A stretch of 64,000 nt of DNA from Planctomycetota bacterium (GTDB taxonomy: Bacteria > Planctomycetota > Phycisphaerae > Phycisphaerales > UBA1924), in the NCBI GenBank assembly GCA_024276195.1, contig JAJRXR010000054.1:84836-148835 (forward strand), given 5' to 3'. The position numbers and the translations under genes are program-made. Below the pieces are notes generated by a model, which did no database searches, was not told the DNA's origin, and was given only the letters and a program-made list of their open reading frames with translations. This document shows positions 30,433 to 47,100 of this stretch, piece by piece (within the stretch, counting starts at the first letter, position 1; the number at the start of each line of letters is the position of its first letter).

Positions 30433-33400
30433 GTGAGCGTCGAGGAACACGGACAGAACGAGTTTGTGGGCGAGTACGCGCCCGAGGAGCTGCTGTGGGA
30501 GGCGCCGGGGCGGAGCGTGTACGCGGCCAGGGCGCCGCTGAGCGATCGGTGTGAGCACGCGCTCAAGCGCGTCTGGCCCGACCCGCTGGGTTTCGGGCCT
30601 GGGGGCGTTGAGGCTGAGCGGCTCCTTGACAGCGCTGCGGTCCAGTCGCGCTGCGCCGAGGCGGACCGGGGCGTCTGGGCGCGTGTACACGGCGCCGGCG
30701 AGCTGGGTGGGGACAGCGCGTATGTCGTGACGGACCTGCTGACGCGTAGCGCTGCGGATCTGGCCCGCCTGCGGGTCCGCCTGCGCGCCGGTGTGCTCGG
30801 GCGGATCGTCGGCGACGTGGTCCGGGGGCTGATCGTTCTGCGAGATTCCTGCGACGGACGGACGCACGGCGCCCTCTCGCCCGAGAACGTGCTTATCAGC
30901 GGAGACGACCCGAGCGGGTGGCGAGGTGTGCTGACCGACCCGGCGCCGGGCGCCCTGCTCGCGCTCGATCCTGAGCGCGCACGGCGCGAGGACCTGCGCG
31001 CTCTCGGGCGGTTGATCGCGCTGCTTGTCACACACCGCGAGGCGAGCGGGGGCAAGATCGGCGGGGCGGACGAGTGCTGGTCGCGCCTCGGGCGCGTCGG
31101 GCCGGCCTGGCGGACGCTGTGCGCCGAGCTGCTCGAAGCGGACAATGCGGGCGATCTTGACGAGCTGAGCGGACGGATCTCAACGCTGCGCCAGCGGGCG
31201 GAGCGCCCCAAACGCCGGCGGCGCATCGGCGCGGTGGTCGCCGGTGTTCTGGCGGTGGGGCTCGGGGCGGCGCTGGTGTTCGGGCTGGGTGGAGATCCGA
31301 CCAAGGGCGGCTCGACGCGGGCGCCGTTCGAGGAAGAGCCGTTCCGTGCCTGGTGCGCCGACGCGGAGATGTGGGTGCTGTATCTCGAGCGCGACGCGCT
31401 GGCGCGGCGCGATGAACTCGCGCTCGATCCGCATCTAGCGAGCGAACTCCTGCCCGTGCTCGACGAGGCGATCGAGCGAGAGATCGAGCTCGACCCCAGG
31501 ACGCTCGTGCGCGCGTCGCCCAGGTCCAGGCTCCGCCTGCCGGAGATGGTCGAGCCCGACGAGCGCAACAAGAAGCTCGGCGGGCGCACCGCCGAGGCGC
31601 TCGACATCATCGGGCGCCTCCGCGGCGCGATCGCCTCGTGGGACGCGGTCTCGGGGGCGAGCGAGCGGGCGAAAGAGTACACGCGGCGCGGCTGGCGCCC
31701 GCAGGGCGCCTTTCTTGAGCGCCTGAGCTCGCGGGTGCTGGCGCCCGAGTGGACCGACCCGGTCACGGGGTTGGTCAGTGTGCCCGAGACAATCGACGAG
31801 ACCTTCGGCCCGGCGCTGGTTGAATCGCTGGTGCAGCTGAGCGAGGCGTCGAGGCTCAGCGATGAGATCGACAGCGCCTGGGAGCGCACGCTCGGGCGTC
31901 TGGACACAATCAGCGGCGCGGGCGCGCCGGCGGACGAGGGCGACGCGCCGGACCCGCTGCTGGGCGCTTTTGCCGAGCTGCCCGCGCGCTACACGGCTTT
32001 CCGCGGGCTCGGGGGCGATCTGGATTCGCTGCGAACATTGCACGGGCGTGTCATGCAGCTCGACGCGCTCTCAGGGGCGATTGAGTCGTTCATCGGCGAC
32101 GGATGGGAGCGGGTGGACCGCCCGTTCTTCGCCTCACGATCGCAGGCGCTGCTGGCGTCTGACCCGGAAAGACCCGCACGGATCGAGGACTTTGAGCTGT
32201 GGCTCAGCGAAGCGTCCGACCCGGGCGTCACCAAGCTCGAAGCGCAGAGCGACCCACGCCTCGCGTACGGCGGGGCGGACGCGTTCGAGCCCCTGCCCGC
32301 CCAGATCGGGGCGCTGCGCGAGCGGTTCGGCGCGGAGCTGTTTACAGAACTGCTCAGCCAGAGCGATCTGGTCGAACGCACGCCCCGCCTGGTGCGCGAG
32401 GCGCGCGAGCTGGACACCATCTCGTGGCAGCGTCTGACGCAGGACCGGGTCGAGAGCGGCGCCGAGCGCCTGAGCGCTGCGCTCGAACGCTCGCGGAGCG
32501 AGCTGGCGAGCCTGAGCGAGAACCTGGAGCGGACGGCCAACGCGTACCTGGACGAGCTGCGCGCTAGCGATGGGGTTTCGGCGCTGGCGACTCCCTCGAT
32601 CGATAGCGCGTGGCGGGCGATGCGCGATGATCTGCTGGAGAGGTACGACGAGGACGGGCGTTTCGCGGAGCTGCGCCGGGCCGAGGCGCCGGCGCGGGAG
32701 CGGCTGCTGGAGATCGAGCGCCGCCTGGCGACGGGGTTGAGTTTCGAGCGGGCGCCGAGCGGGTTTGACGCCGATGCGCTGGCGCCCGTCCTGCGCGAGC
32801 GCATGGACGCGGCCTGCGCCCGGGGCGCCGCCCTGCTGACCTGGACCGGGCAGCAGTTCGAGACGCCCGCAGGCTTTGACGAGGCGATCGAGACCATCGC
32901 CCAGGGTGAACGCGAGTGGGGCGAGCGCCTGGGCGCGATGGTGAGCGACCACGCCCAGATCGAGCGTCTGCTCGATGACGCGATGCTGCTCGATGAGGCG
33001 GGCGAGGAAGGGCGCTCGGTGCGCGAGCTGGCGCTGGCGTGGCGCGATGATGATCTCCTGGGCGATGACCGGGTCCGCGCCTCGCTCGCCGGCGTGCTCG
33101 GGCGGGTCGAGCGCCTGGAATCGATCGAGCGTGAGACAGACCCGCAGCGTCTGGCAGCGATGGCGACGGATGATTCGATCGAGATCGCCGGGGCGCTGAT
33201 CGCGTATCTCGGGGTTGATGAGGCTGATGCAAGCTGGCCCGCGAGCGCTGCGCAGCTCGAAACCGAGCGCGTCGCGATGCGAGGGCTTGGCGAGCGCGTC
33301 GCGGCGCTGGGGAGCGAGGACCGGCGCGCGGCGGTTCTGTCTCGCGTGAGGGCTGAGGCGCGCGGGCGCTGGGCGCGGTTTGCGGGGGGCGCCGGGGATC

Positions 33401-34776
33401 TGAGCGAGGTGGACGCGGCGGCGAGCATGCGGGCGGAGTTTGGCGCTGACCTGGGCGGGCTGCGCCCAGCCGCGGCGTACAACATCCTGCTGCGCGAGTT
33501 CCAGACCTCGGTGGATCTGACTGTTGATGAGCAAACGCTGCGCGCGCGCGTCGAGCGCCTGCGCGATGAGCTGGCGCCGGTTCGGGCTGGGCTCAGCGAC
33601 GCGAGGGCGCGCCGGTTTGTCGATGAGATCGTGGACATCGCCCGCCCGCCAGACGACACCCGGCGCGTGCTCGAGGCCAGAGAGTTTGGCCCGGGCCAGC
33701 ATCGCTGGAACGCCTCGGACATCGACGGCGGCGAGACACTGGTCTACACATCGAATGGCGTTGGTGGGGCGCTGCGACTCGAGTTTGTGCGCATCGAGGC
33801 GGACAGCTCCAACGGGCTGAGGCGCGCGGCGTATGTGTCGAAGCGCGAGGTCTCGCTGGGCGTTGTCCGTGCGATGGGCGCGACGCTTGGGAGGGAGGAT
33901 GTGATCGCCGGAGCGTCGTGGTCCAAGCTGGCCGAGTCGTCGTGGACCATGCTGGCCGATGCGCAGCAGCGCGCGGGTGAGCCCGGCGGGCAGGAGTGGG
34001 CCGGCGCCCGGGTCTGGAGCTGGGACCGGACGAGCAACGCCCTGGTCCCAGCGGAGTCGTGGCTCCGGCGCCACCCGCAGATCACGCCCGAGTCGCCCGC
34101 GTACGCGCCGGGCCTGGGCGATCCGAACGACCCATTGCTGATCGCTGCGGCGCAGGGGCGTCCGGGCGATTCGATGCCGATGAACCATGTTTCGCCCCGG
34201 GCGGCCCAGGCGCTCGCCCAGGCGCTGGGCGCTCGCATCCCGACCGAGACCGAGTGGCGCGCAGCGCTGCGGCGGCAGGGCGGCGCCGGCGGGAGCGCAA
34301 ACCGTCGCGACGCGACGTTCGCGCGCCAGCGCGACTGGATCACACAGGTCGAGGCGAGGTTGCGTCAAGACGGGGCCGTCTCGCAGTTCTCGTACCCGGA
34401 CCGCGGCGCGTTCCTGCCTCGAAGCATCGGCGCCAGCACGGACGGGAACGCCGTTGCGCTCAACACCGACGATGGCGTGCTCTGGTTCACGCCCGTTGAC
34501 GGTGGCGGTGGCAGGGTGTTCAGCGACCTGATCGGGAACGTCGCGGAGATTGTTTCGGTCGGGGAGGGGTTCGGCGTGATCGGCGCCTCGGCCCTGTCGG
34601 CTCCCGAGATCGACCCGATGACGCTCTACCCGCTCAGGCGCGCACAGTACAAGCGAGGCGCCAGCTCGGACGTCGGCTTCCGCCTGGCCCTGGACATCCC
34701 CGACGGCGTCTTCCGCCAGACCGTCAACCGGCGCATAGAAAAGCTGCTCGCGAGAGCAGCGTGTGTGTTCGAATGA
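30433..34776 (+). CDS. Membrane pseudokinase with long helical region and FGE-sulfatase-like C-terminus, linked to T6SS-type genes
   Basis: A 1,447-aa protein. I use the GTG at 30433 because GGGAGG precedes it. Residues about 15-240 follow the Ser/Thr kinase plan, but key residues are lost. The ALK lysine is present (HALKR, about 42). HRDLKPEN is replaced by HGALSPEN (145 onwards), so the catalytic Asp is gone, and DFG is replaced by DPA. It should be a pseudokinase. A transmembrane helix lies at about 262-284 (AVVAGVLAVGLGAALVFGL). Residues about 330-1080 are charged helical repeats, probably periplasmic. The last 350 or so resemble the formylglycine-generating/SUMF1 fold: MPMNHVSPRAAQALAQALGARIPTETEW in pieces, GNVAEIVS, and SDVGFRLAL at the end. 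It heads the plus-strand run leading to tssL, tssM and tagF, and may replace the PpkA kinase that controls TssL in type VI systems. Confidence 0.7.
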   Translation: MSVEEHGQNEFVGEYAPEELLWEAPGRSVYAARAPLSDRCEHALKRVWPDPLGFGPGGVEAERLLDSAAVQSRCAEADRGVWARVHGAGELGGDSAYVVTDLLTRSAADLARLRVRLRAGVLGRIVGDVVRGLIVLRDSCDGRTHGALSPENVLISGDDPSGWRGVLTDPAPGALLALDPERARREDLRALGRLIALLVTHREASGGKIGGADECWSRLGRVGPAWRTLCAELLEADNAGDLDELSGRISTLRQRAERPKRRRRIGAVVAGVLAVGLGAALVFGLGGDPTKGGSTRAPFEEEPFRAWCADAEMWVLYLERDALARRDELALDPHLASELLPVLDEAIEREIELDPRTLVRASPRSRLRLPEMVEPDERNKKLGGRTAEALDIIGRLRGAIASWDAVSGASERAKEYTRRGWRPQGAFLERLSSRVLAPEWTDPVTGLVSVPETIDETFGPALVESLVQLSEASRLSDEIDSAWERTLGRLDTISGAGAPADEGDAPDPLLGAFAELPARYTAFRGLGGDLDSLRTLHGRVMQLDALSGAIESFIGDGWERVDRPFFASRSQALLASDPERPARIEDFELWLSEASDPGVTKLEAQSDPRLAYGGADAFEPLPAQIGALRERFGAELFTELLSQSDLVERTPRLVREARELDTISWQRLTQDRVESGAERLSAALERSRSELASLSENLERTANAYLDELRASDGVSALATPSIDSAWRAMRDDLLERYDEDGRFAELRRAEAPARERLLEIERRLATGLSFERAPSGFDADALAPVLRERMDAACARGAALLTWTGQQFETPAGFDEAIETIAQGEREWGERLGAMVSDHAQIERLLDDAMLLDEAGEEGRSVRELALAWRDDDLLGDDRVRASLAGVLGRVERLESIERETDPQRLAAMATDDSIEIAGALIAYLGVDEADASWPASAAQLETERVAMRGLGERVAALGSEDRRAAVLSRVRAEARGRWARFAGGAGDLSEVDAAASMRAEFGADLGGLRPAAAYNILLREFQTSVDLTVDEQTLRARVERLRDELAPVRAGLSDARARRFVDEIVDIARPPDDTRRVLEAREFGPGQHRWNASDIDGGETLVYTSNGVGGALRLEFVRIEADSSNGLRRAAYVSKREVSLGVVRAMGATLGREDVIAGASWSKLAESSWTMLADAQQRAGEPGGQEWAGARVWSWDRTSNALVPAESWLRRHPQITPESPAYAPGLGDPNDPLLIAAAQGRPGDSMPMNHVSPRAAQALAQALGARIPTETEWRAALRRQGGAGGSANRRDATFARQRDWITQVEARLRQDGAVSQFSYPDRGAFLPRSIGASTDGNAVALNTDDGVLWFTPVDGGGGRVFSDLIGNVAEIVSVGEGFGVIGASALSAPEIDPMTLYPLRRAQYKRGASSDVGFRLALDIPDGVFRQTVNRRIEKLLARAACVFE

Positions 34777-34799
34777 TGGCGCCCCGGAGCGAGGTGGGA

Positions 34800-35051
34800 T
34801 TACTCGATGGGCACGGAGGCGAAGGTGTCGCCCGCCGGGCTTTGCGCGGCTTTGTAGTAGGCGATGACCATGGGCTGGTGGAAGCTCGACGAGCCGAGCG
34901 AATCGCCCACGCCCGGGCTGTACCGCAGCGCGGTCGGGTTGCAGGGCATCGGCTTGCTGGCCCGGTTGGCCCCCGACGAGCACCCGAAGCCCGTCAGGGC
35001 GAGGGCGGCGAGCGAGGCGGCGGACAGAACGGTGCGGCGGCGGATGGTCAT
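34800..35051 (-). CDS. Small lipoprotein inside the T6SS-like locus
   Basis: An 83-aa predicted lipoprotein on the strand opposite to its neighbours. The N-terminus MTIRRRTVLSAASLAALA leads to a lipobox LTGFGC (Cys at 24), then a short mature part (CNPTALRYSPGVGDS...). TTGGGGA precedes the ATG at 35051. It overlaps nothing and fills the gap between the pseudokinase gene and the next plus-strand gene. TssJ of type VI systems is also a small outer-membrane lipoprotein, but TssJ is about twice as long and I see no shared motif, so that link is only positional. Confidence 0.55.
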   Translation of the reverse strand: MTIRRRTVLSAASLAALALTGFGCSSGANRASKPMPCNPTALRYSPGVGDSLGSSSFHQPMVIAYYKAAQSPAGDTFASVPIE

Positions 35052-35320
35052 GGCGTGTCCCCAAGAGGTGCTGTGTACTCGGGGGACGGTGCGGTACAGA
35101 TGCTGGAGCGGGCGAACGATCTGGCGTGCTCGCCCGCGCCGCGGGGACGATCCAAGACTCCAAAGCACGCAGACGTTGCAGGCCCGAGCGCCGAGCGTCC
35201 GAGAGCATGTGAGAGAGCGTTCCCCGGAGCGGGGCAGACAGGGGCGCCGCCCCGTATCATGCTCCTCAATGACCGGCGCGCCGTCGGCGCGATCCGCACA
35301 GAAAGGACGATCGGCACACG

Positions 35321-35899
35321 ATGAGCACCGACCCCGAGACCCTGACCGCGCGGGCGCACGAGCGCATCCGTGAGATGCTCGGGCTCGAGGCGGGCGCCGT
35401 GCTCGATCAGGCCCGCCTGGGCGATGTGCTGGCGATGGTCCTCAAAGAGTTCATCGGCATCGACCAGGTGACGACCGGCGCCTGGGGCCAGATGGCGCCC
35501 GCCTCCGACGCCCGCAGCGCCTCACGCATCGGCGAACTCGCGGGCGCCTACCTGAAATCAGGCTCGGACGAGGACCGCGCGGCCCTGCTGGGCGATCTGG
35601 AGGCGGCCCGCCTGCTGGGCGTCTGCCTGCTTGCCGCGACGCCCCGGGCCGGGCAGGTCTCGTGGAGGCACGTCGCTCGCCTGGCGCCCGAACGCCTCGA
35701 GGGCGTCGCCAAGGCGGAGAAGAAGTGGAACGAGAGCCTCGAGTTCGCCTGCTGGCGCAAGTACAAGGAGCTGGCGGGCGAGATGGACTCGGCGGGCTTT
35801 GAGGACGAGGTCATGAGCGCGATCGGCTCCTACGTCCAGACCCTGCTCGACAAGCGCCAGCACGTCACGGATGCAGCGGATGCGGGGGGCGGGTCGTGA
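35321..35899 (+). CDS. T6SS-locus protein, possibly like the C-terminal domain of FHA protein TagH
   Basis: A 192-aa soluble, mostly helical protein with no signal peptide. Its last 80 residues (EKKWNESLEFACWRKYKELAGEM...VMSAIGSYVQTLL) resemble in pattern the helical C-terminal domain that follows the FHA domain in type VI TagH/Fha1 proteins, where a K-x-x-LWExY-type helix precedes a final F-x-x-AY helix. No FHA domain is present. The similarity is by eye and weak. It ends GTGA, overlapping the GTG start of tssL, so the two are translationally coupled and the product very probably works with TssL. Confidence 0.5.
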   Translation: MSTDPETLTARAHERIREMLGLEAGAVLDQARLGDVLAMVLKEFIGIDQVTTGAWGQMAPASDARSASRIGELAGAYLKSGSDEDRAALLGDLEAARLLGVCLLAATPRAGQVSWRHVARLAPERLEGVAKAEKKWNESLEFACWRKYKELAGEMDSAGFEDEVMSAIGSYVQTLLDKRQHVTDAADAGGGS

Positions 35900-36579
35900 C
35901 GACTCTGCCAGAGCTGTGCGAGCAGTTGTTCCAGTACGTCTGCCGGTTGAGCCGGTCGGCGCGCAAGGGCGTGGCGCTCGACGCGGGGCTGGTCCGGTCG
36001 GACGTGCGCGCGCTGATGGGCGAGCTGGGCTCGCGCGCCCGGGGCGAGACGGGGATGACGGTGCTGGTGGACGATGTGCGGGTGGCGCTGGCGTTGTTTG
36101 TCGATGAGACGGTGCGGACGAGCGTGCCGGGTGTGGGCGAGTCGTGGGGATCGATCGCCGACGAGATGGAAGGCTTCGAGGTGGACCCGTCGCGGTTCTT
36201 TCAGACGATGGAGGACGCGCTCGGGGACATGAGCCAGGGCGGGTTGCAGCGCGTCGAGACGCTGCAGATCTGTCTGGGGCTCGGGTTCACCGGCGGGCGG
36301 ACACCCGGCGAGGTGGCGTCGCTGATCGAGCGAGCTGGTGAGCGTCTGGGCGGGCGGATGGACGCGGACCCGATGGCGCGGGTCTGCCCGGAGGCGTATG
36401 AGCATGTGGACACGAGCGACCTGATCCAGCCCGCCGGGCGGAGCGTGGTGGGGATCGGCGTGGCGCTCGTGGCGTTGATTGTTGTGGTCGTGGTGGGCAA
36501 CGCGCTGATCTACAAGAACGCGTCGGGCGAGCTGCGGGCGGCGCTGCGCGGCATCGAGCACGCGATCGGAGCCGATTAG
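35896..36579 (+). CDS. tssL: Type VI secretion-type inner-membrane protein TssL (DotU family)
   Basis: TssL/DotU pairs with TssM in the envelope-spanning complex of type VI secretion systems. The 227-aa product begins LPELCEQLFQYVCRL, as DotU proteins do, with LFVDETVRTS and ESWGS in the middle (the conserved FVDE element), FEVDPSRFFQTMEDAL, and ETLQICLGLGFTGG. A single transmembrane helix sits near the C-terminus (about 182-204, SVVGIGVALVALIVVVVVGN), the tail-anchored topology of the family. The start is a GTG overlapping the previous stop. tssM follows nine bases later. A peptidoglycan-binding extension, seen in some TssL, is absent. Confidence 0.85.
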   Translation: MTTLPELCEQLFQYVCRLSRSARKGVALDAGLVRSDVRALMGELGSRARGETGMTVLVDDVRVALALFVDETVRTSVPGVGESWGSIADEMEGFEVDPSRFFQTMEDALGDMSQGGLQRVETLQICLGLGFTGGRTPGEVASLIERAGERLGGRMDADPMARVCPEAYEHVDTSDLIQPAGRSVVGIGVALVALIVVVVVGNALIYKNASGELRAALRGIEHAIGAD

Positions 36580-36587
36580 GAACACCC

Positions 36588-39500
36588 ATGCAGCTTCTTC
36601 CCGCCAGCCTGATGAACCTGCCCCGGGCGATCCGCCTGGTGCTGATTGTCGCTGCGCTCGGGGCGATCGCGGGCGGGGTGGCGTTGGCGCCGTCACCGGT
36701 CAACTGGTTGATCCTGGCGCTGGTGGTTGTGGGCGTGCTGGTGCTGGCGTTGTACGGGATCACGCTACGGGCGCTCGACAAACGCCGGGTCAGCCCGTTC
36801 CAGATGAGCCTGGGCGAGAACACCGGAGCGTCGCCCAAGCAGGTGCGCGACCCGGAGGCGCGGGCGCGCATCGACGAGCTGCGGACCAAGTTCGAGGAGG
36901 GCGCGAGCGTCTTCCACCAGCACGGCAAGGACCTGTACTCGATCCCGTGGTACCTGATCGTGGGCGAGCCGGGCTCGGGCAAGACCGAGGCGGTGCGCCA
37001 CTCGGGCGTGGGCTTCCCGCCCGGGCTGCAGGACGAGTTGCAGGGCGCCGGCGGCACGCTGAACATGAACTGGTGGTTCACCAACCACGCGGTGATCCTC
37101 GACACCGCCGGGCGGTTGCTGTTTGAGGAGGTCGAGGCGGGCTCGACGAGCGAGTGGCGTGAGTTCCTCAAGCTGCTGCGCAGCGCCAGGCCCAACTGCC
37201 CGGTCAACGGGATGCTGCTGGTGATCCCGGCCGACAGCCTGATCCGGGACACGGGCGAGGAGATCGAGACCAAGGCCGGGCGGATCGCCGAGCAGCTCGA
37301 CCACATCCAGCGGGCGCTGGGCGTTCGCTTCCCGGTGTTTGTGGTCATCACGAAGGCGGACCTGATCAACGGGTTCCGCGAGTTCTTTGACGACATGACG
37401 GACCCGTCGGTCCAGCACCAGATGCTGGGCTGGTCCAACCCGGCGCCGCTCGACTCGGGGTTTGACCCCGAGGCGGTCGAGGAGCACCTGCGCACGGTCC
37501 GCGAGCGGCTGCTGCGCCGGCGCCTGCGCCTGCTCGGGGCGGCGGGCTCGGGCGTGGAGAGCGGCATCGACCGGGCGGACGCGATGTACGCGTTCCCCGA
37601 CAGCATGATGAAGATGGCGCCGAGGCTCAGGCGGTACCTCGAGATGGTGTTCGTCCAGGGCGAGTGGAGCACGCGCCCGCTGTTCCTGCGCGGGATCTAT
37701 TTTACAAGCTCGATGCGTGAGGGCTCGGCCCTGGACCAGGATCTGGCCGAGGTTCTGGGCGTTGATGTCGAGAGCCTGCCCGAGGGGCGCGCCTGGGAGC
37801 GGGACCGGAGCTACTTCCTCAAGGACCTGTTCCTGAGCAAGGTGTTCAAGGAACGCGGGCTGGTGACGCGGGCCGCCAGCACCTCGAAGACCAAGCGCCG
37901 GCGTCAGGCGGCGGTGCTCAGCGCAGGCTTCCTGATGGTCGTGGGGGTGGGGCTGCTGACGTGGCTGGGTGATCGCCAGCTCCGCGAGGCGATCATCGGT
38001 CCCAGCGAGTTCTGGACGAGACTCAATGACACGATGCGCGACGATTCGGGCGCCGTAAGTGCCGGGGTGGAAGATATCGAGATTGTCTATTACGACAACA
38101 TTGACGACCAGCACATGTACGCTGGCGAGAACCCCACCGGCCTCGGCTCGATCGGGTCGCTCTCGATGGTCGAGATGCACACCGAAGCGCGCCGGCGTTC
38201 GACCGAGGCGCCCGACCCGCCCGCGATCTTTGGGCCGGTCGCCAAGCTCTGGGGCGATCCGTTCGAAGAAGCGCCCAAGGTGCAGCGGGAGCTGTTCGAG
38301 AAGAGCGTGCTTGATCCGCTTGTCACGCGCACGCGGGCGTTGATCGGGCGCGAGGACGAGCCCTGGTCGGACGAGGCGACGGACGCGCTGGGCGAGTTGA
38401 TCGGCATCGAGCTCGCGGCCCGGGACACGGGCGACACACGCCCTGCGCTGGATCTGGACCGCCTGCTCGCGTTTGTACTTGCGGGGAACGAGGACGTGAG
38501 CGCCGAACGCCGGACGCTCGACGCCCAGGCGCTCCAGCGTGTGCTCGAAAGCTCGTACACGGACACATCCGCGTGGCCCCCCGCGGGCGTGCGCGGCGTG
38601 GAGGGGGTCTCGGGGCGGATCGTTCGCGTTGGTGTGGATCGGTTTGTCGAGCACTGGACGGATCGCGGCGGGGTGGACAGCCGCACGCTGGGCGAGATCG
38701 TCGCGCTCGGGCTCGCGTGCGAACGGTTCAGCGACGCGGAGAAGGCGATTCTCGCGCTCGGGCCTGGGGCGCTGACCGACGAGCGGTGGGGCGGAGCGTT
38801 CGCCGAGCTTGTCGCGGCCCGCGACGCGCTCGATGAGGCGGTCGAGCAGGGCGGGGCGGCGCGGTCGCTGGGCGCGGAAGAGCTTCAGAACCGGGTGCGC
38901 GATGAGTCGCTGGAAGCGGCGCGCGGCTCGTACCAGTCGCTCCTGCGCCGCCTGGCGTCGGATGACGAAGGACCAGGGGACGACCCGTTCCGCGATGATC
39001 TGCGGACCAAGATCGAGGGCTCATGGAACGGGCTGGAGCGGTCGATCGACCGGCGCCTGAGCGACGCGCGCGATCGGGTGGCGCGCCACGAGGGCGCGCT
39101 GCTGGGCGTTGCTGGAGCGGGAGAGGCCAAGTACGTCATCCGGAGCGTGATCTTCGAGACGATGGACCGGGCGCGCCGGGGCGGGGTCAGCGACACCGAT
39201 CTGGTGACGCTGGGCCAGACGATCAGATCGATCGACGCGACGTACGAGCGCGGGGCGGCGTCGCTCGATGAGCTGGGTTCGCCCGGCGTCGGGGCGCCGC
39301 GCCGGACGGTCGCGTTCGCGCGGGAGGCGCTCGCGCAGCTGCGCCGGGCGCAGAGCGGGCGCGCCGTTGACGCGGCCCTGGCCCAGATCAGCGCCGAGGC
39401 GGGCGCGCCCGAGGCGTTTGTCGAGCGGCGCGGGGTGGAGCTGGGCGTTGTCGAACGCCCGAGCATCCCGCTGACGCGCCTGGACGGGGGCGAGTTTGAC

Positions 39501-40940
39501 CCGCGGTATCACGCGGAGGCCGCCGGGGAGATGTTCGCGGGTGTGGGCGCGGCTCGGGCGCTTGCTGAGGGCGACGACGCGTCGAGCGTGCTGCCCGATC
39601 CTGCGCGTGTGCGCCGGGAGCTCGACGAGCTGGATCGGCGCTTAGAGGCGTACGGGCGGGCGTATCTGGCGTACTGGGCGGGGACGGTGGTCGAGGACGC
39701 GCAGGTGTATCTGCCGGCGGACTGGGGCAAGAGCTTTACGCTGCTCGGGCGGGTCGATCCGCTGGACGTCAACCCGCACCTGGGCGAGCTGACGCGCCGC
39801 CTGATCGAGGCGATCGACGCCATGCCCGAGCGTGTGGTCGCGGGAGATGCGCGCGCGATGCGTCTTGCGCGGGTGCTCGCTGATGAGCTTGCCGAGCTGA
39901 GCGACGGGCGGTTCGGGCTTGAATGCGGGCGGGCGATCGACCGGTGGCGCCTGCTCTCGCCCAGTGTGGAGCAGGCGCGTTCGATCGTGCTGGTCCTCAC
40001 GCCCGGGGCGTTCAAGCGGGAGTACCTGCTGCTGTACAAGCGGTCGGGGCTTGGCCCGGGGCTGGGATACTGGAGCGAGGTGCAATACCGGGCGCTGGTG
40101 GCGCTGGCGCAGAGCGCCTCGGACCGGGCGTCGGACGCGCGGGACCGCCTGATCCGCGAGCTGCGCGGGTTCCCGCTGTGTCTGGATTGCGCCGAGACAC
40201 TCTCGCCCGTCGCGGTGCGCCAGGGCGTGGCGTTGATGGGGATGATCGATCTGCCGAGCAATCTGGAGACAGGGGGGCGCAACCGGATCGGCAGCGGCGA
40301 CTTCGGCAGCCTCGATACCCAGGTCCAGGAGCAGCTCAAACGCCTTCGCGGCGATCTGATCTGGGCCAGCGCCGAGCAGCGGCGCTGGTACGAGCGACTG
40401 CGCGAGGCGCTGGTGCTGTTCGATGCGGGGGGCGGGGCGTTCGAGCAGGAGCTCGTCATCCTGCGGGGTGAGTCGCAGGAAGACCCGTCGATCGTGAGCC
40501 GGTACCCGTTCATGGAGATCTACCTGGGCACTCGGCGCCTGCCCGTCGATGGCTCGGGCACGCTGGTCCCGACCGGGGCGCTCAACACGCGGACGGGGCT
40601 GCGCCTGCCCGTCCCGATCGAGTCGGGGATCGAGCTTCGCCTACGTTCGAGCGCGGGGGGGGCGGTCGAGGCGATCGCGCGTCTGGATGAGCCCTGGGGG
40701 GGGCTCGAGGCGGTGCGATGGAGCACGGGGCCTCTGGACCCGGATGATGTCTCGCCCGAGGGGCTGCCCGTGACGGGCGTGTGGCGTCTGCCCATTGAAC
40801 TCACAACGCCCGACGGGCGCCCGATCCGCTCTGCGGGCGGGGCGGCGGTGCGCTACACCCTGGGTGTGCGCTTCATCGGGCGCCAGATCCCGGACCCGAC
40901 GACCTGGGCGACCGAGCGGGCCTGGCCCAACGCAGAGTGA
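36588..40940 (+). CDS. tssM: Type VI secretion-type membrane protein TssM (IcmF family)
   Basis: TssM spans the envelope and links TssL to the outer-membrane part of the complex. The 1,450-aa protein has two N-terminal transmembrane helices (about 16-34 and 38-60), a cytoplasmic P-loop domain with Walker A GEPGSGKT (126-133) and VILDTAGRL (169-177), TKADLINGFREFF, and the family strand FVQGEWSTRPLFLRGIYFTS. A third helix is at about 441-463 (AAVLSAGFLMVVGVGLLTWLG). The remaining 980 residues are periplasmic and helical, ending in a beta-rich domain (GTRRLPVDGSG... WRLPIELTTPDG). It is longer than usual TssM (about 1,100-1,200). AGGA precedes the ATG. Intact ATPase motifs argue that this is a working protein. 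Confidence 0.9.
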   Translation: MQLLPASLMNLPRAIRLVLIVAALGAIAGGVALAPSPVNWLILALVVVGVLVLALYGITLRALDKRRVSPFQMSLGENTGASPKQVRDPEARARIDELRTKFEEGASVFHQHGKDLYSIPWYLIVGEPGSGKTEAVRHSGVGFPPGLQDELQGAGGTLNMNWWFTNHAVILDTAGRLLFEEVEAGSTSEWREFLKLLRSARPNCPVNGMLLVIPADSLIRDTGEEIETKAGRIAEQLDHIQRALGVRFPVFVVITKADLINGFREFFDDMTDPSVQHQMLGWSNPAPLDSGFDPEAVEEHLRTVRERLLRRRLRLLGAAGSGVESGIDRADAMYAFPDSMMKMAPRLRRYLEMVFVQGEWSTRPLFLRGIYFTSSMREGSALDQDLAEVLGVDVESLPEGRAWERDRSYFLKDLFLSKVFKERGLVTRAASTSKTKRRRQAAVLSAGFLMVVGVGLLTWLGDRQLREAIIGPSEFWTRLNDTMRDDSGAVSAGVEDIEIVYYDNIDDQHMYAGENPTGLGSIGSLSMVEMHTEARRRSTEAPDPPAIFGPVAKLWGDPFEEAPKVQRELFEKSVLDPLVTRTRALIGREDEPWSDEATDALGELIGIELAARDTGDTRPALDLDRLLAFVLAGNEDVSAERRTLDAQALQRVLESSYTDTSAWPPAGVRGVEGVSGRIVRVGVDRFVEHWTDRGGVDSRTLGEIVALGLACERFSDAEKAILALGPGALTDERWGGAFAELVAARDALDEAVEQGGAARSLGAEELQNRVRDESLEAARGSYQSLLRRLASDDEGPGDDPFRDDLRTKIEGSWNGLERSIDRRLSDARDRVARHEGALLGVAGAGEAKYVIRSVIFETMDRARRGGVSDTDLVTLGQTIRSIDATYERGAASLDELGSPGVGAPRRTVAFAREALAQLRRAQSGRAVDAALAQISAEAGAPEAFVERRGVELGVVERPSIPLTRLDGGEFDPRYHAEAAGEMFAGVGAARALAEGDDASSVLPDPARVRRELDELDRRLEAYGRAYLAYWAGTVVEDAQVYLPADWGKSFTLLGRVDPLDVNPHLGELTRRLIEAIDAMPERVVAGDARAMRLARVLADELAELSDGRFGLECGRAIDRWRLLSPSVEQARSIVLVLTPGAFKREYLLLYKRSGLGPGLGYWSEVQYRALVALAQSASDRASDARDRLIRELRGFPLCLDCAETLSPVAVRQGVALMGMIDLPSNLETGGRNRIGSGDFGSLDTQVQEQLKRLRGDLIWASAEQRRWYERLREALVLFDAGGGAFEQELVILRGESQEDPSIVSRYPFMEIYLGTRRLPVDGSGTLVPTGALNTRTGLRLPVPIESGIELRLRSSAGGAVEAIARLDEPWGGLEAVRWSTGPLDPDDVSPEGLPVTGVWRLPIELTTPDGRPIRSAGGAAVRYTLGVRFIGRQIPDPTTWATERAWPNAE

Positions 40941-40958
40941 GAGGTGGTCGAGCGAGCG

Positions 40959-41939
40959 ATGAAGATCGGGTTCAAGCGAAAGCAGGGCGGGGGCGAGCGG
41001 GTCTGGCTCGGGGCGTACGGCAAGCACCCGGCCTGGGATGATCACGTCTACTCGTCCGGGCTCGATACCTCACGCATGACCCAGCTCCGCACCACGCTCT
41101 ACAGCAAAGGCATCGGCGGGCGGATCGACTCGGGCGTCTGGGACAAGCTCGACGACGACGAGCGCGTCGAGGGCTTCGCCCACACGCTCGTGTGGCGGAC
41201 GATCGACGGGCTTGTTGTTGCGCGATTGATTGACTCGGTCGATGGCAAGGGGCGGGCGCGGTACCCGCTGGTGGTGTGCGCACAGATCCAGGGCTTGGCC
41301 GGCGCCTGGGTGTGCGGGCGCGTGGTTGAGCGGTTGGTGCATACCGCGGCGGCGTGCCGGGCGGAGACCACGCAGGAGGGGTTCACGGGCGAGATCGAGC
41401 TGGCACGCAGCGAGCTGCGCGCCGAGGCGCAGCTGCTCAATGACGCGGGCGAGTGTGCCTCGGGCGAGGCGGCGGCGTCGAGGCTGGTTGAGCGGGCGGG
41501 CGACGAGGCGATCGAGCGTGTGCTGTACCAATGCCGGCGCGATATGCGGGTGTTTCTTCGCGGGCATGTGCGTGGGGAGAAGACCTCGTCGCGGACGATT
41601 GATACCTCGGCCAAGCACTGCCGAGCGCCGGCGTGCGCCGCGAGCCCGGGCGAGAGCTGCGAGCTGTGGCTGCGGACGCTGGACCATCTGGTGGGGGACA
41701 CGGCGCCGGTGATGGTGGCGGTCCCGGATTCGCTGGAGTTTGCGGATCTGATCGTGGGCGAGCCGGAGGCGAGGCAGTTTTATTGTCTGCTGGCGGGCGC
41801 CCGGGCGTTGCCGCTGGCCAGCGAGATCCCGTTCGAGATTGATCCGGAGAGCCGGGCGTGGGGGCGGGAGTTTCTGAGCCAGAGCCGGTCGGGGGAGATG
41901 AAGGATCGTGATCCGGGGTGGGTGGGATCGAGGCGGTGA
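40959..41939 (+). CDS. tagF: TagF-like type VI secretion-associated protein
   Basis: TagF proteins hold type VI systems off until a kinase pathway relieves them. The 326-aa product begins, after a short basic leader, with WLGAYGKHPAWDDHVYS, matching the TagF opening YGKLPxxGDFV, and continues with a mixed fold (ERVEGFAHTLVWRTIDGLVVARLIDSVD in parts, RYPLVVCAQ). The C-terminal 200 residues, Ala/Glu-rich then FLRGHVRGEKTSS and LVGDTAPVMVAVPDSLEF, are longer than minimal TagF. I use the ATG at 40959; a GTG at 40944 is also possible. It starts 18 bases after tssM and ends the secretion-type run. The adjacent pseudokinase makes the same regulatory pathway a fair guess. Confidence 0.7.
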   Translation: MKIGFKRKQGGGERVWLGAYGKHPAWDDHVYSSGLDTSRMTQLRTTLYSKGIGGRIDSGVWDKLDDDERVEGFAHTLVWRTIDGLVVARLIDSVDGKGRARYPLVVCAQIQGLAGAWVCGRVVERLVHTAAACRAETTQEGFTGEIELARSELRAEAQLLNDAGECASGEAAASRLVERAGDEAIERVLYQCRRDMRVFLRGHVRGEKTSSRTIDTSAKHCRAPACAASPGESCELWLRTLDHLVGDTAPVMVAVPDSLEFADLIVGEPEARQFYCLLAGARALPLASEIPFEIDPESRAWGREFLSQSRSGEMKDRDPGWVGSRR

Positions 41940-42103
41940 GCCCCAGGGAATGCGCAGATTCCGCGCGGCCCCTGTGATGGGGAGGAGCCGGGGCGCTTGA
42001 TGGCGGGGCGGGGCTCTGTTAGTGTTTGTGCTAGTAGCGTCGCGTTTGAGTGCGCATGGGGGAATCTCCGCCAGGCGGCGCGGCGGGCAGAAAAGCAGGC
42101 ACG

Positions 42104-44134
42104 ATGCTCGGATTGATTGGGGACGGGTGCGTCAGCGAGAGCGGCGCATGGGGAATCTTCGCACGGCGGGCCGCCGCGACGCTGGTCGTGTGCGCCCTGG
42201 GCGGCGCGTTGGCGCAGGATAACCCGGCGAGCGTCGAGGCTGAGAATCCATCGGCACAATCGGCGCCCGAGCAACAGGCGCAGGCGGACGAGGCCCCGGC
42301 GGGCGACGAGGCCCCGGTCGATCCGGACGGCAATGTCTTCGATATCGGCACGCTCACGCTGAGCTATTTCCGCGAGCACCCGCGGCAGCCGGCGCTGGAC
42401 GAGCTCGGGGCGCTCGAGGTGACGCTGGGCGTGCGGGGGGACGGGTTCGTCTCGCCGCGAGAGGGGATCGAGACGCGGACGCTGAGCCTGGCCCAGCTCG
42501 GGGACGGCACGGTGCGCCGGATGTACGCCTCGGCGATCACCGAGGTCATGCGCGTCGTTGTCAAGGACTTCAAGTCGCGCACCATCATCGGCGTGTTCGT
42601 CGCGCCGGACCCGACCCAGATCATCCTCCGCGAGGGGGGGATTGATTACCGCGAGGGGCAGACGGGGCTGACGCTGGTGATTTACACGGCGCGGGTGACG
42701 CGCGTCCGGTCGATCGCGTCGGGCAAACGGGTGTCTCGGGATGAGCGGATCGACAACCCGCTGCACGCGCGGATCCGGGATCGCTCACCCATGCGGGCGT
42801 ACGACGAGTCCGAGCCCGAGGAGGACCGGCGGGACCTGCTGATCAAGAGCGAGCTGGACCGCTACGCGCTGCGCCTCAACCGCAGGCCGGGGCGCCGGGT
42901 GGACATCGCGGTGGCGCCGGCGGAGGGGATCGGCAACGCCGAGCTGCAGTACCTCGTCCAGGAAAACAAGACCTGGAGCGCGTACTTCCAGCTCTCGAAC
43001 ACGGGCACAAAGAGCACGGACGAGTGGCGCGAGCGGTTCGGATTCCAGCACACCCAGCTCACGGGCAACGACGATACGTTCTTGATCGAGTACGTCACGG
43101 CGGGGTTCAGCTCGTCGCACATCGTCTCGGCCTCGTACGAGCGACCGATCGGCGCGTCCGACAAGCTGCGCCTGCGTGTGGACGCGAACTGGAACGAGTT
43201 CGAGGCGTCGGACGTGGGCATTTTGCGTGAGCTGTTCACGGGCGACGGCTGGGGCGTGGGCGGGGAGCTGATCTACAACGTCTTCCAGAAGCGCGAGCTG
43301 TTTGTGGATGTTGTGGGCGGGGCTCGGTTCCAGCACATCGGCGTCGTCAACCCGGGGCTGCCCGGGGGGGGCGTGGGCGAGGAGGATCTGTTCCTGCCGC
43401 GTGTGGGCATGCGCGTCGAGCGCCAGACGGACCGCAACAGCCTGGCGGGGTCGGTGATGCTCGAGTGGTCGCAGTCGAGCGTGACGGCGGCGTCGGTGCG
43501 CGACCTGGAGCGTCTGGGGCGGATCGCGCCGGACAAGGACTGGGCGGTCTTGCGCTGGGACTTCCAGACGAGCGTGTTTCTGGAGCCTTTGTTCAACGCG
43601 AAGGGTTGGGCGGATGTTTCGACGCCGGAGAGTTCGACGCTGGCGCATGAGCTGGTGCTGGCGTTCCGGGGGCAATACGCGTTCAACCGACGCCTGATCC
43701 CGCAGCAGGAGGCGGTGCTGGGCGGGCTGTACACGGTGCGGGGGTACGACGAGTCGGTGGTCGCGGGCGACACGACGATGATGGTGTCGGCGGAGTACCG
43801 GTTCCATGTGCCCAGGTCGTTTGATGTGAACCCGGAGCCGGGGGCGACGTTCCGTGGCAAGCCGTTCAAGTGGGCACCGCAGCAGGTGTACGGGAGGCCA
43901 GACTGGGATCTGGTGCTGCGGGCGTTTGTGGACGCGGGGTGGACGTGGAACAGCCAGCGGTTGCCGTTCGAACGGAATGAGGCGTTGCTGGGCGCCGGGG
44001 TGGGGGCGGAGCTGCTGGTGTTGAGCAACCTGTCGGTCCGAGCGGACTGGGGGTTTGCGTTGTCAGATTTGAACAACGGGCTCGGGGAGCGGGGGGATAG
44101 CCGCCTGCACTTCGTGCTGACGCTTCTGTTCTAA
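42104..44134 (+). CDS. Two-partner secretion outer-membrane transporter (ShlB/FhaC/HecB family)
   Basis: TpsB-type pore that moves its large TpsA partner across the outer membrane. The 676-aa protein has a signal peptide with a twin-Arg-flavoured basic patch (FARRAAATLVVCALGGALAQ). An acidic Ala/Glu linker follows. Then come POTRA-like segments (RTIIGVFVAPDP, LTLVIYTARVTRVRSIASGKRV) and a 16-strand-type barrel region ending VLTLLF with a terminal Phe. The family barrel motif VRGYDES is present (GGLYTVRGYDES), corresponding to the loop 6 VRGY. I prefer ATG 42104; ATG 42056 would add 16 residues. The adjacent tpsA begins 46 bases later, so the two are an operon. They follow tagF by about 160 bases with no terminator that I could see. 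Confidence 0.88.
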   Translation: MLGLIGDGCVSESGAWGIFARRAAATLVVCALGGALAQDNPASVEAENPSAQSAPEQQAQADEAPAGDEAPVDPDGNVFDIGTLTLSYFREHPRQPALDELGALEVTLGVRGDGFVSPREGIETRTLSLAQLGDGTVRRMYASAITEVMRVVVKDFKSRTIIGVFVAPDPTQIILREGGIDYREGQTGLTLVIYTARVTRVRSIASGKRVSRDERIDNPLHARIRDRSPMRAYDESEPEEDRRDLLIKSELDRYALRLNRRPGRRVDIAVAPAEGIGNAELQYLVQENKTWSAYFQLSNTGTKSTDEWRERFGFQHTQLTGNDDTFLIEYVTAGFSSSHIVSASYERPIGASDKLRLRVDANWNEFEASDVGILRELFTGDGWGVGGELIYNVFQKRELFVDVVGGARFQHIGVVNPGLPGGGVGEEDLFLPRVGMRVERQTDRNSLAGSVMLEWSQSSVTAASVRDLERLGRIAPDKDWAVLRWDFQTSVFLEPLFNAKGWADVSTPESSTLAHELVLAFRGQYAFNRRLIPQQEAVLGGLYTVRGYDESVVAGDTTMMVSAEYRFHVPRSFDVNPEPGATFRGKPFKWAPQQVYGRPDWDLVLRAFVDAGWTWNSQRLPFERNEALLGAGVGAELLVLSNLSVRADWGFALSDLNNGLGERGDSRLHFVLTLLF

Positions 44135-44179
44135 GTTGCGCGTGGGCGCGAAGAGGGCGAGAGCCTTCGGAGGTCGGTG

Positions 44180-47100
44180 ATGGGCGCACGAGAGATTGCC
44201 GGGATCGCGGGCGGTGTGGTCGGACGCGGGCGCGTCAGGCGGGCGCTGCGTCACAAGGGGATGATCCCGGTGGCGCTGAGCGCTGCGGCGATGTTGACGC
44301 CGATGGCCCAGGCCGGGCCAGAGGGCGAGAATGTTGTCTACGGCTGGGCGGAGTTCTACCGCGACGGCGTTTGGACGACGATCACGGTCAGCGATCTGGC
44401 GATCATCAACTACAGCTCGTTCAACATCGAGTCGTGGGAGATGGTGCGGTTCATCCAGCCCGACGGGTCGAGCCGGGTGCTCAACCGGATCGACGGCGCG
44501 ATGCCGACGTTCATCAACGGGCAGTTGTTCTCGAACGGGCAGGTGTTCTTTGTGAACCCGGCGGGGATCTACTTCGGCGAGGGCGCCGTGATTAATGTCG
44601 GCGGGATTTACGCCGCCGCCGGGCACATGTCCGACGCGGACTTCCTATCGGGCACGAACCGGTTCACGGGGTTGTCGGGGGCCGTGGTCAACCACGGGCG
44701 GATCCAGAGCGAGGGCAGCGTGGGCATGGTCGGGCGGCGCGTCGCCAACTTCGGCTCGGTCATCGCGGGCGACGTGGTTGTCATGGGCGCGGGCGACGAG
44801 GTGCTCATCGGCGAGCGCGGCGGGCACGTGTTCGCACGCATCTCGGGCGGGGGAACCAACACGGGCGGCGTCGCGACGGACATGGGCGTCCAGAACGGCG
44901 GGATCATCCGGGCCGGCTCGCAGGTGGTTCTGGGTGTGGGCGATCACTTTGCGCTGGCGCTGTACGACACGAGCGAGATTTACGCGCAGGCCGTGGATAT
45001 CAAGGGCAAGTACGGGTCGAACATCCGGGTTGCCGGGACGATCGACGCGACGGGCGAGACGGGCGGGCGCGTCCACATCACGGGCGATTACATCGAGATC
45101 GACAACGCGAACATCGACGTCTCGGGCGATTTCGGGGGCGGGGCGATCCGCATCGGCGGCGCCATGCAGGGCTCGGGGTCGATGTGGCGCGCCAAGGGGA
45201 CGTGGATCGGCGCCAACACCGTTCTGCGGGCGGATTCAATCACGCAGGGCGACGGCGGGCGGATCATCGTCTGGGCCGACGGCGCGACGGGCTTCCGCGG
45301 GACCATCAGCGCCCGCGGCGGGCTGCTCGGGGGCGACGGGGGCTTCAGCGAGGTCTCGGGCAAGGGCTGGCTCTCGTTCAACGGGAACGTCGATCTGACC
45401 GCGCCCCTCGGCGTCAAGGGCACGCTGCTGCTCGACCCGACCAACATCCGGGTCTTCGACGGACCGGCTGGCTCGGGCGATGTTGACGGATCGGCGACGA
45501 ACGCGGACTTCATCTTTGCCGCCGCCGACGCGGACCCGGGCGACATGGAGACCTCGATCAGCAACACGGACCTCGTCACGCTGCTCGACACGGCGGACAT
45601 CATCCTCCAGGCCAACAACGACATCATGTTCACCGGCTCGGTGGACGCCTCGGCCAACACGGGCGACCGCTCGCTGACGCTCAACGCCGGGCGGAGCATC
45701 CTGATCTCGGACAACGTCGAGATCCTGCTGCGCGGCTCGTTCAGCGCGACGGTGAATGACATTTTGGCCAATGTCGATCGTGGCGCGGGCGCGGGCGTGT
45801 TCTCGATGGGCACGGGCTCGCGGATCGTCACGACCTTCGGCGCCAGCGACGGGTCGATCACGATCGTGAGCCAGGACGGGCGCACCGGCGCCGAGCTGGG
45901 CGGCGACTTCACGCTCGCCGAGCTCGACGCGGGCTCGGCGATGATCTCGCTGACCGTCACGGGCGACGACGGCTCCGTCTCGTTCGTCGGCGCCCCGGGT
46001 GGCGCGACGCTCACGGGCGGGACGATCGAGCTCAACAATGCGATGGTCGCGGGCGATATCGGCGCCGTCGGCGCTGCGCTCGTGCTCAACGCGACCACGT
46101 TCGCCGCAGCGTCGTCTGGCGACGTCGTCCTCTCGCTCGGCGGTGTCAGCGAGGTCGGCGCGGTCGGCGGCACAACAGGCGTGTCCTCGACCGGCGGGTC
46201 GGTCGAGATCACCAGCGCCTCGCTGCTGACGGTCAGCGAGACCATCTCGATCGCAGCCGATGGCGAGAGCATCGCCCTGGACGTGGGCGATCTCGCGATC
46301 GACTTTGCGGGCGGCGCCGAGATCACCACGGGCGCAGGCTCGAACCGGACCGTTTCGATCACTGGCGGCGGGGGCATGGTCAGCCTGGGCACGGCCGTGG
46401 GCGGGCTGGCGCTGACATCGTCCGAGCTGGCCCAGATCACGGCCAACACGATCCGATTCGGCAGCGCCACAACAACGCAGTTGACGGTGGGGACGGTCAG
46501 CGCGCTGGACTTTGGTGGCGCGGCGATCGAGCTGCGCGCCATGGGCGCAGGCGGGATGATCAGCTTCGCGCCTGGCGTCGCGACGACGTTCGAGTTCGCC
46601 TCGCTCGACGCCCGGGCGACGAGCGAGATTTCGTTCGGCGCCAACGCGGTCGGGATCATCGCGACCGGGGCGGGGTCCATCTTCTTCGACGCGGGCAGCG
46701 GCGACGTCACGATGGCCGAAATGATCTTTGCGCTCGGGCAGGCGGGCAACACCATCACCACGGCCAGCGACCTGATCTCGGTGCTCGGCTCGTTCACGAT
46801 CGTTGGCGATCTGGTCGTGGATAGCCTCGCCAACCCGGAGCTGCGCCTCATTGCGGGCACGGGCGTGACAATCCTGGGCTCGCTAGACACCATGGGCGCC
46901 GATCTGCTGGCGATCAGCGGCGCCGGCGCGTTCACGGTCGGGGGCGCTGGGTCTGTCACGACCGGCGGGGGCGACCTGACCATCTTCGCGACAGACCTGA
47001 GCCTCGCGGGCACGCTCGACGCGGGCGCGGGCGATGTCACGATCGACTCGTCCAGCGGGATCGAACTCGGCATCGCCAGCGGCGGCGGTGGTGTGATGGT

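Follow-up and report, generated by a model that had tools for sequence, protein, structure and literature searches.

A probable tail-less derivative of the type VI secretion system beside a two-partner secretion pair in Phycisphaerales

A Phycisphaerales locus that encodes TssL and TssM, the membrane proteins of the type VI secretion system (T6SS), is very probably a tail-less derivative of such a system, made repeatedly by loss and then kept. It lies in a 64,000-nucleotide stretch of DNA (the window; C43:84836-148835, the window end being the contig end) from a metagenome-assembled genome (MAG) of 3.04 Mb in 88 contigs, 91% complete, and it consists of KIN, X192 (FHA_C-like), TssL, TssM and TagF, followed by the two-partner secretion (TPS) genes TpsB and TpsA. 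In the reading that we favour as a whole, to which we give roughly even odds (probability about 0.5), this repeatedly formed derivative has been kept as an envelope switch that probably acts on TpsB/TpsA. The features of the locus are as follows (window positions):

30433..34776, plus strand: KIN, with a cytoplasmic pseudokinase domain, a transmembrane segment, a long helical region and a C-terminal FGE-sulfatase (SUMF1-like) domain
Within 30433..34776, plus strand: transmembrane segment and helical region of KIN, as read by eye from the sequence
34800..35051, minus strand: small divergent lipoprotein of 83 residues with a GDSLG motif, an open reading frame (ORF) between KIN and X192
35321..35899, plus strand: X192, 192 residues, probably related at a distance to the C-terminal domain found in type VI FHA proteins; FHA domain not found
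35896..36579, plus strand: TssL/DotU, PF09850 E 2.6e-12; one C-terminal transmembrane segment (read by eye)
36588..40940, plus strand: TssM/IcmF, PF14331 E 3.2e-58; P-loop GEPGSGKT intact, DTAG and TKAD motifs
40944..41939, plus strand: TagF, unfused in the window
42050..44134, plus strand: TpsB, an outer membrane transporter of the ShlB/FhaC type, PF03865 E 1e-13
44177..53812, plus strand: TpsA, a 3211-residue exoprotein with an N-terminal TPS domain (PF05860 E 1.6e-20) and a conserved C-terminal region

In the window, TssL and TssM both score above the cut-offs of PF09850 and PF14331, which identifies them as T6SS membrane proteins; against TIGR03349, TssL reaches 34.4 bits, below the cut-off of 89.95. 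The genes x192 and tssL overlap by four bases. TpsB and TpsA, matched by PF03865 and PF05860 and encoded side by side, form a two-partner secretion pair, and a type III glutamine synthetase gene directly follows TpsA. The original prediction had read from this DNA a plus-strand run of a kinase-like protein, a 192-residue protein, TssL, TssM with an intact P-loop and TagF; profiles and motifs bear this run out, but it was incomplete, as the TpsB/TpsA pair and the minus-strand lipoprotein ORF had gone unlisted.

Genome-wide profile searches covered TssM, TssC and TssK in a class sample and in the window's family, and TssF, Hcp and VgrG in 26 sheathless genomes and eight full-system controls; TssB, TssE, TssG, TssA and ClpV lay outside these searches, ClpV being scanned in the fetched stretches only. 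TssM was found in 46, TssC in 41 and TssK in 39 of the 248 class genomes, and in 79, 55 and 54, respectively, of the 164 family genomes. TssC and TssK occur together in 54 of the 79 TssM-bearing family genomes and are both missing from the other 25, which belong to 12 genera; one family genome, G353, has TssC alone. Twenty of the 25 sheathless family genomes are at least 90% complete, G383 being a single contig and G237 four contigs. The set of 26 is completed by G021 from another family, which has TssM, no TssC and a TssK reduced to a 78-residue fragment; three further class genomes of the sheathless kind (G031, G068 and G176), whose neighbourhoods differ or are cut, were excluded. TssF was matched in 0/26 sheathless genomes versus 8/8 controls, VgrG in one (G333) versus 8/8, and Hcp in two, both weakly (G237 and G300), versus 8/8. 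The window's own genome yielded no match to TssC, TssK, TssF, Hcp or VgrG. Components of the contractile sheath are thus missing from this genome and from all 25 sheathless family genomes as far as TssC is concerned (TssB was not searched genome-wide); for the baseplate, TssK is absent from the same genomes and TssF from 26/26 (TssE and TssG were not searched genome-wide); and for tube and spike, neither Hcp nor VgrG was found in the window's genome. As sheath, baseplate and tube components are lacking, the locus is classed not as a T6SS but as its derivative.

Several observations were made alongside these counts. The lone VgrG of G333 (G333:C65:17227-18564) scores 257 bits, and many T6SS genomes carry, away from the main copy, a second divergent VipB/TssC-like gene of ~80-230 bits (e.g. 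G189:C1:584846-585691 and G309:C1:1676703-1677569). In the more distant class genome G031 (G031:C7; L053 10794-16175), TssM is followed by a TagF-like protein and the genome has no TssC or TssK match; this is possibly another tail-less type without an adjoining TPS pair. A contig of a Humisphaera sp. MAG (L178) has the order TssL-TssM-TpsB-TpsA, with no X, TssK or TagF match in the locus and short upstream sequence, and may represent a sheathless locus outside Phycisphaerales, in the order Tepidisphaerales. Three records titled Acidimicrobiales, Cyanobacteria and Leptolyngbya (L144, L156 and L205) carry loci of the Phycisphaerales type, L144 sharing 95% identity with the window over the query part; they are probably mis-binned or mislabelled.

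The gene order of full and sheathless loci was read from 25 full systems (24 of the family's 54 and G063), from all 25 sheathless family genomes and from G021. In G185 and G309 the full order is KIN, X, TssK, TssL, TssM, TagF, TpsB, TpsA, TssA, TssB, TssC, Hcp, one gene, TssE, TssF, TssG and ClpV, and G032 resembles them apart from an insertion that follows TssA; for most other full loci, the sequence fetched ends at TpsA. X-TssK-TssL occurs in 24/25 full loci, the divergent system of G201 having TssK-TssL without X. In every one of the 25 sheathless family loci, X is followed by TssL at a gap of at most ~110 bases, often with a 4-base overlap, and without a TssK match in between. The congeners G309 (full) and G310 (sheathless) are collinear over seven genes and differ by TssK and by everything after TpsA. 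TpsB directly follows TagF in 21/25 full loci (it is absent there from G201 and G334; G319 and G394 stop at a contig end) and in 23/25 sheathless family loci; in the other two (G306 and G307) it lies on a second contig, which brings the count to 25/25 genomes. TpsA was found for 24 of these 25 genomes, in opposite orientation in G301, none being seen in G302. The order first noticed in the window hence recurs in 25 family loci whose genomes lack tail genes, KIN being detected in 18 of them.

In a TssM tree of 51 rows, the sheathless label requires nine changes, seven of them forced by branches with support of at least 95 in the approximate likelihood ratio test (SH-aLRT). After removal of long branches and near copies, which leaves 37 of these rows (LG+G4, quick tree), eight changes are required and a single sheathless clade is rejected (approximately unbiased test, p-AU 1e-64). 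G310 groups with the full-system G309, and G390 with the full-system G388: the sheathless loci are polyphyletic. Most sister groups of the TssM tree return in the TpsB tree, and thus the locus was largely inherited as one. Because full systems make up the outgroup loci and a fragment of TssK persists in G021, loss is a simpler direction than gain, and we infer that the sheathless states arose by repeated loss. An envelope machine repurposed for another job, as the original prediction had it, is still something we infer, and its gene run is the inherited remainder of a full type VI locus rather than an independent assembly.

The retained genes are under constraint. Ratios of nonsynonymous to synonymous substitution (dN/dS), taken for each gene from the closest pair within a genus, span 0.04-0.17 for genus g13, 0.19-0.37 for the genus of the window (G000/G321) and 0.09-0.23 for g12; in g218, five genes give 0.11-0.22. 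P-loop and DTAG are retained in 26/26 sheathless TssM proteins. When sheathless rows were thinned to at most 18 and full rows to at most 22 (G201, G063 and G334 excluded), TssM had 131 columns conserved at 90% or above in sheathless versus 154 in full systems (mean 0.429 versus 0.437), X192 seven versus seven and TpsB 111 versus 110; constraint on TssM is therefore almost as tight as that in full systems, and constraint on TssL and TagF, considered below, is somewhat looser. Seven of the eight g13 genomes seen keep the set; the eighth (G296) has part of TssM where a contig begins, along with TagF-TpsB-TpsA. This suggests that a membrane base kept under selection does a job of its own.

The accessory proteins offer hints as to this job. 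The N-terminal part of KIN, taken as a family profile, matched StkP and other Ser/Thr kinases in the PDB (E 2.9e-9), and HGALSPEN stands at the position of the kinase motif HRDLKPxN. The catalytic HRD aspartate is replaced in 16/16 sheathless and 4/4 full copies with a readable motif, and also in G310; copies without a readable HxD are mostly cut by the end of the fetched stretch. By comparison with the Ser/Thr kinase PpkA, the fold is thus present by profile and the catalytic aspartate absent, and KIN is a pseudokinase, as had been surmised. Its C-terminal domain scores 28.1 bits against PF03781 (cut-off 23.3). For X192, 6/22 family members match T6SS_FHA_C (PF20232) weakly, with a best E of 5.2e-4, the window's member alone matching nothing at E<=1; the AlphaFold model is all helical at a mean pLDDT of 94.3, and no match to the N-terminal phosphothreonine-binding FHA domain was found in the 192 residues. 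Distant from the locus, at 16245-17891 of the window, an FHA domain is fused to a type II/IV secretion ATPase (PF00498 and PF00437).

Near the interval between KIN and X, a strict pattern finds a lipoprotein-like ORF in 36/50 loci (21/26 sheathless, 15/24 full), on the minus strand in 36/36, and in 2/677 control stretches of 1500 bases downstream of X, which are similar, not equal, in size to the tested interval. The window's copy fails the strict pattern, by eye at one lipobox residue, and was assigned by its likeness to the copy of G321. This small conserved protein with a GDxLG motif is a possible stand-in for TssJ. The TagF of the window has the TagF fold, with longin and DENN proteins as next fold neighbours, and the Fha-binding residues GK and S-x-D-x3-R. 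TagF of many relatives with a full T6SS is fused to a region with a transmembrane segment and an FGE-like domain resembling that of KIN (e.g. L108 11554-16221), a fusion that the window's TagF lacks. G270:C64 (L234 1-7045) has a fusion of TagF with a KIN-like region beside TpsB and TpsA; the 20-kb stretch gave no match to TssL, TssM or X, and TssM was not found elsewhere in that genome. Binding of TagF to Fha and of Fha to phosphorylated TssL is described in two published reports (PMC5995506, PMC3953482).

These components could work together in the following manner: TssL and TssM would form an inner-membrane complex with a nucleotide switch, which cytoplasmic TagF and the FHA_C-like protein would set. 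The FGE-like periplasmic part of KIN and the periplasmic part of TssM would provide input to the switch, and the small lipoprotein might do so too. The complex would then probably act on, or read, the export and display of the giant TpsA through TpsB, so that the former weapon would have lost its harpoon but retained its front end, which senses contact and the envelope. A TPS-linked task of the TssL-TssM complex is, on its own, a tentative proposal that we would hold at clearly less than even odds. By analogy with longin and DENN proteins on small GTPases, TagF might act on TssM, with its G1, DxxG and TKxD-like motifs, in a stand-alone TssL-TssM-TagF nucleotide switch that split off many times and controls the giant TPS surface protein, but this specific version is rather unlikely.

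The favoured envelope switch has to be weighed against a number of contrary observations, many of which concern the TPS pair. With at most seven candidates scored per genome, the TpsB profile matched at least 137/164 family genomes, and many of these lack TssM. Twenty stretches around such TpsB genes were fetched; in 15 of them TpsB, whether accompanied by TpsA or not, occurs without any match to TssL, TssM, X or TagF: 12 of the 15 come from 11 genomes without TssM (G312, G313, G290, G248 (twice), G119, G376, G262, G326, G265, G096 and G387; G096 has a ClpV-like match besides), and the other three are second TPS loci in the TssM-bearing G201, G321 and G350. Of the remaining stretches, those of G316 (on a contig of 5 kb) and G270 lack TssM but have a gene resembling KIN or TagF, and those of G296, G306 and G307 are sheathless loci truncated by the end of a contig. 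TPS is therefore useful alone, and TssL-TssM is not generally needed for it. Nor does KIN have a profile match in 7/25 sheathless family loci. Columns conserved at 90% or above are fewer in sheathless than in full systems for TssL (22 versus 32) and TagF (27 versus 41); TssL of g218 gives a dN/dS of 0.45, derived from an over-extended frame, and values of up to 0.81 occur among more distant pairs of the window's genus, whose synonymous sites are almost saturated. Finally, the TssM frames of G333, G335 and G390 are 758-937 residues long and cease to match the TssM of the window at residue 608-669, so that crossing the periplasm seems dispensable there.

The independence of TPS pairs in those 11 genomes speaks for an alternative in which the TssL-TssM-TagF-FHA_C complex is kept for a task unrelated to TpsA (sensing of envelope damage or attack, placing of cell-envelope enzymes, or export of another substrate), TPS being a neighbour with its own use. 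From the short TssM frames of three sheathless genomes, the cytoplasmic switch would seem to be more important than a reach across the periplasm, and the presence of FGE-like domains in KIN and in a fused TagF suggests sensing; TagR of P. aeruginosa carries such a domain. This possibility is a real one, albeit one we judge to be somewhat doubtful, since TpsB stays next to TagF in all sheathless family loci not cut by contig ends, across several separate changes, and TpsB and TssM share most of their sister groups. It is improbable that the genes are a decaying type VI remainder or passengers of a selected TPS operon without present function. A series of full system, TssL-TssM with TPS, and TPS alone is indeed observed, as in G387 (TPS alone), the sister of the full-system G386, and the short TssM frames and the fewer conserved columns of TssL and TagF fit decay; but the low closest-pair dN/dS (0.04-0.37 in three sheathless genera), the universal P-loop and DTAG, the near-equal column conservation of TssM and the retention of the same gene set after several separate changes, including by most of g13, do not. 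There is hardly any chance that an ordinary T6SS in two loci lost its remainder in assembly gaps, the split locus of the original prediction: although the window ends at a contig end of an incomplete, fragmented MAG, 25 genomes lack TssC and TssK, among them largely complete ones and the single contig of G383, TssK is missing within contigs, and the searches for TssF, VgrG and Hcp came back nearly empty. Just as remote is service to a contractile tail of a different kind (a phage-like particle or an extracellular injection particle, for instance), to which TssL-TssM as the normal docking base of such tails might lend itself, because Phage_sheath_1 matched 0/25 sheathless family genomes (and G021 once, partially, at 34.1 bits) and the docking adaptor TssK is gone.

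Type VI systems of freshwater planctomycetes are mentioned in one report (PMC6461901). The component families of the locus are all known, and for the tail-less locus and its repeated origin no description was found in searches of open-licence papers. T6SS membrane complexes are usually viewed as docking bases for the contractile tail; if base and regulators were repeatedly kept without it, they must act alone, and in the sheathless genomes this task stands apart from the harpoon. Sister pairs of a full and a sheathless genome (G309/G310 and G388/G390) are natural deletion experiments, and the steady TPS neighbourhood offers a testable idea on a machine that reads or controls contact with neighbouring cells. 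If true, the TPS-coupled switch would be a secretion or display system that joins type VI membrane parts to type V export.

Among known systems, the locus resembles the T6SS membrane complex (TssJ-TssL-TssM) in the TssL and TssM families, gene order and P-loop, with TagF, an FHA_C-like protein and a kinase-fold regulator alongside. It differs in that its genome is without matches to the tail components searched for, and TssJ was not recognised in the locus (no TssJ profile was run), where a lipoprotein of another kind is found. With the T6SS threonine phosphorylation pathway (PpkA, Fha, PppA and TagF; TagQRST in P. aeruginosa) it shares a kinase-fold membrane protein with an FGE-like domain, a protein that weakly resembles the C-terminal part of Fha and a TagF with Fha-binding residues, but the kinase is without its catalytic aspartate, also in the four full-system relatives with the motif read, no FHA domain was found on X192 and PppA was not recognised in the locus. 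Two-partner secretion (type Vb; FhaC/FhaB and ShlB/ShlA) is matched by a TpsB with a ShlB match and a TpsA with an N-terminal TPS domain, encoded by adjacent genes, which here are joined to the TssL-TssM-TagF run. CdiA-type proteins have variable toxin C-termini; in contrast, the C-terminal 350 residues of this TpsA match those of 25/29 other TpsA frames compared, and the adjacent gene is the glutamine synthetase gene rather than an immunity gene, which sets the pair apart from CdiA/CdiB. IcmF and DotU of type IVB secretion (Legionella type) belong to the same two protein families as TssM and TssL; the window's TssM, however, fits the T6SS model far better (TIGR03348, E 1.4e-86, versus 1.1e-5 for IcmF_IVB).

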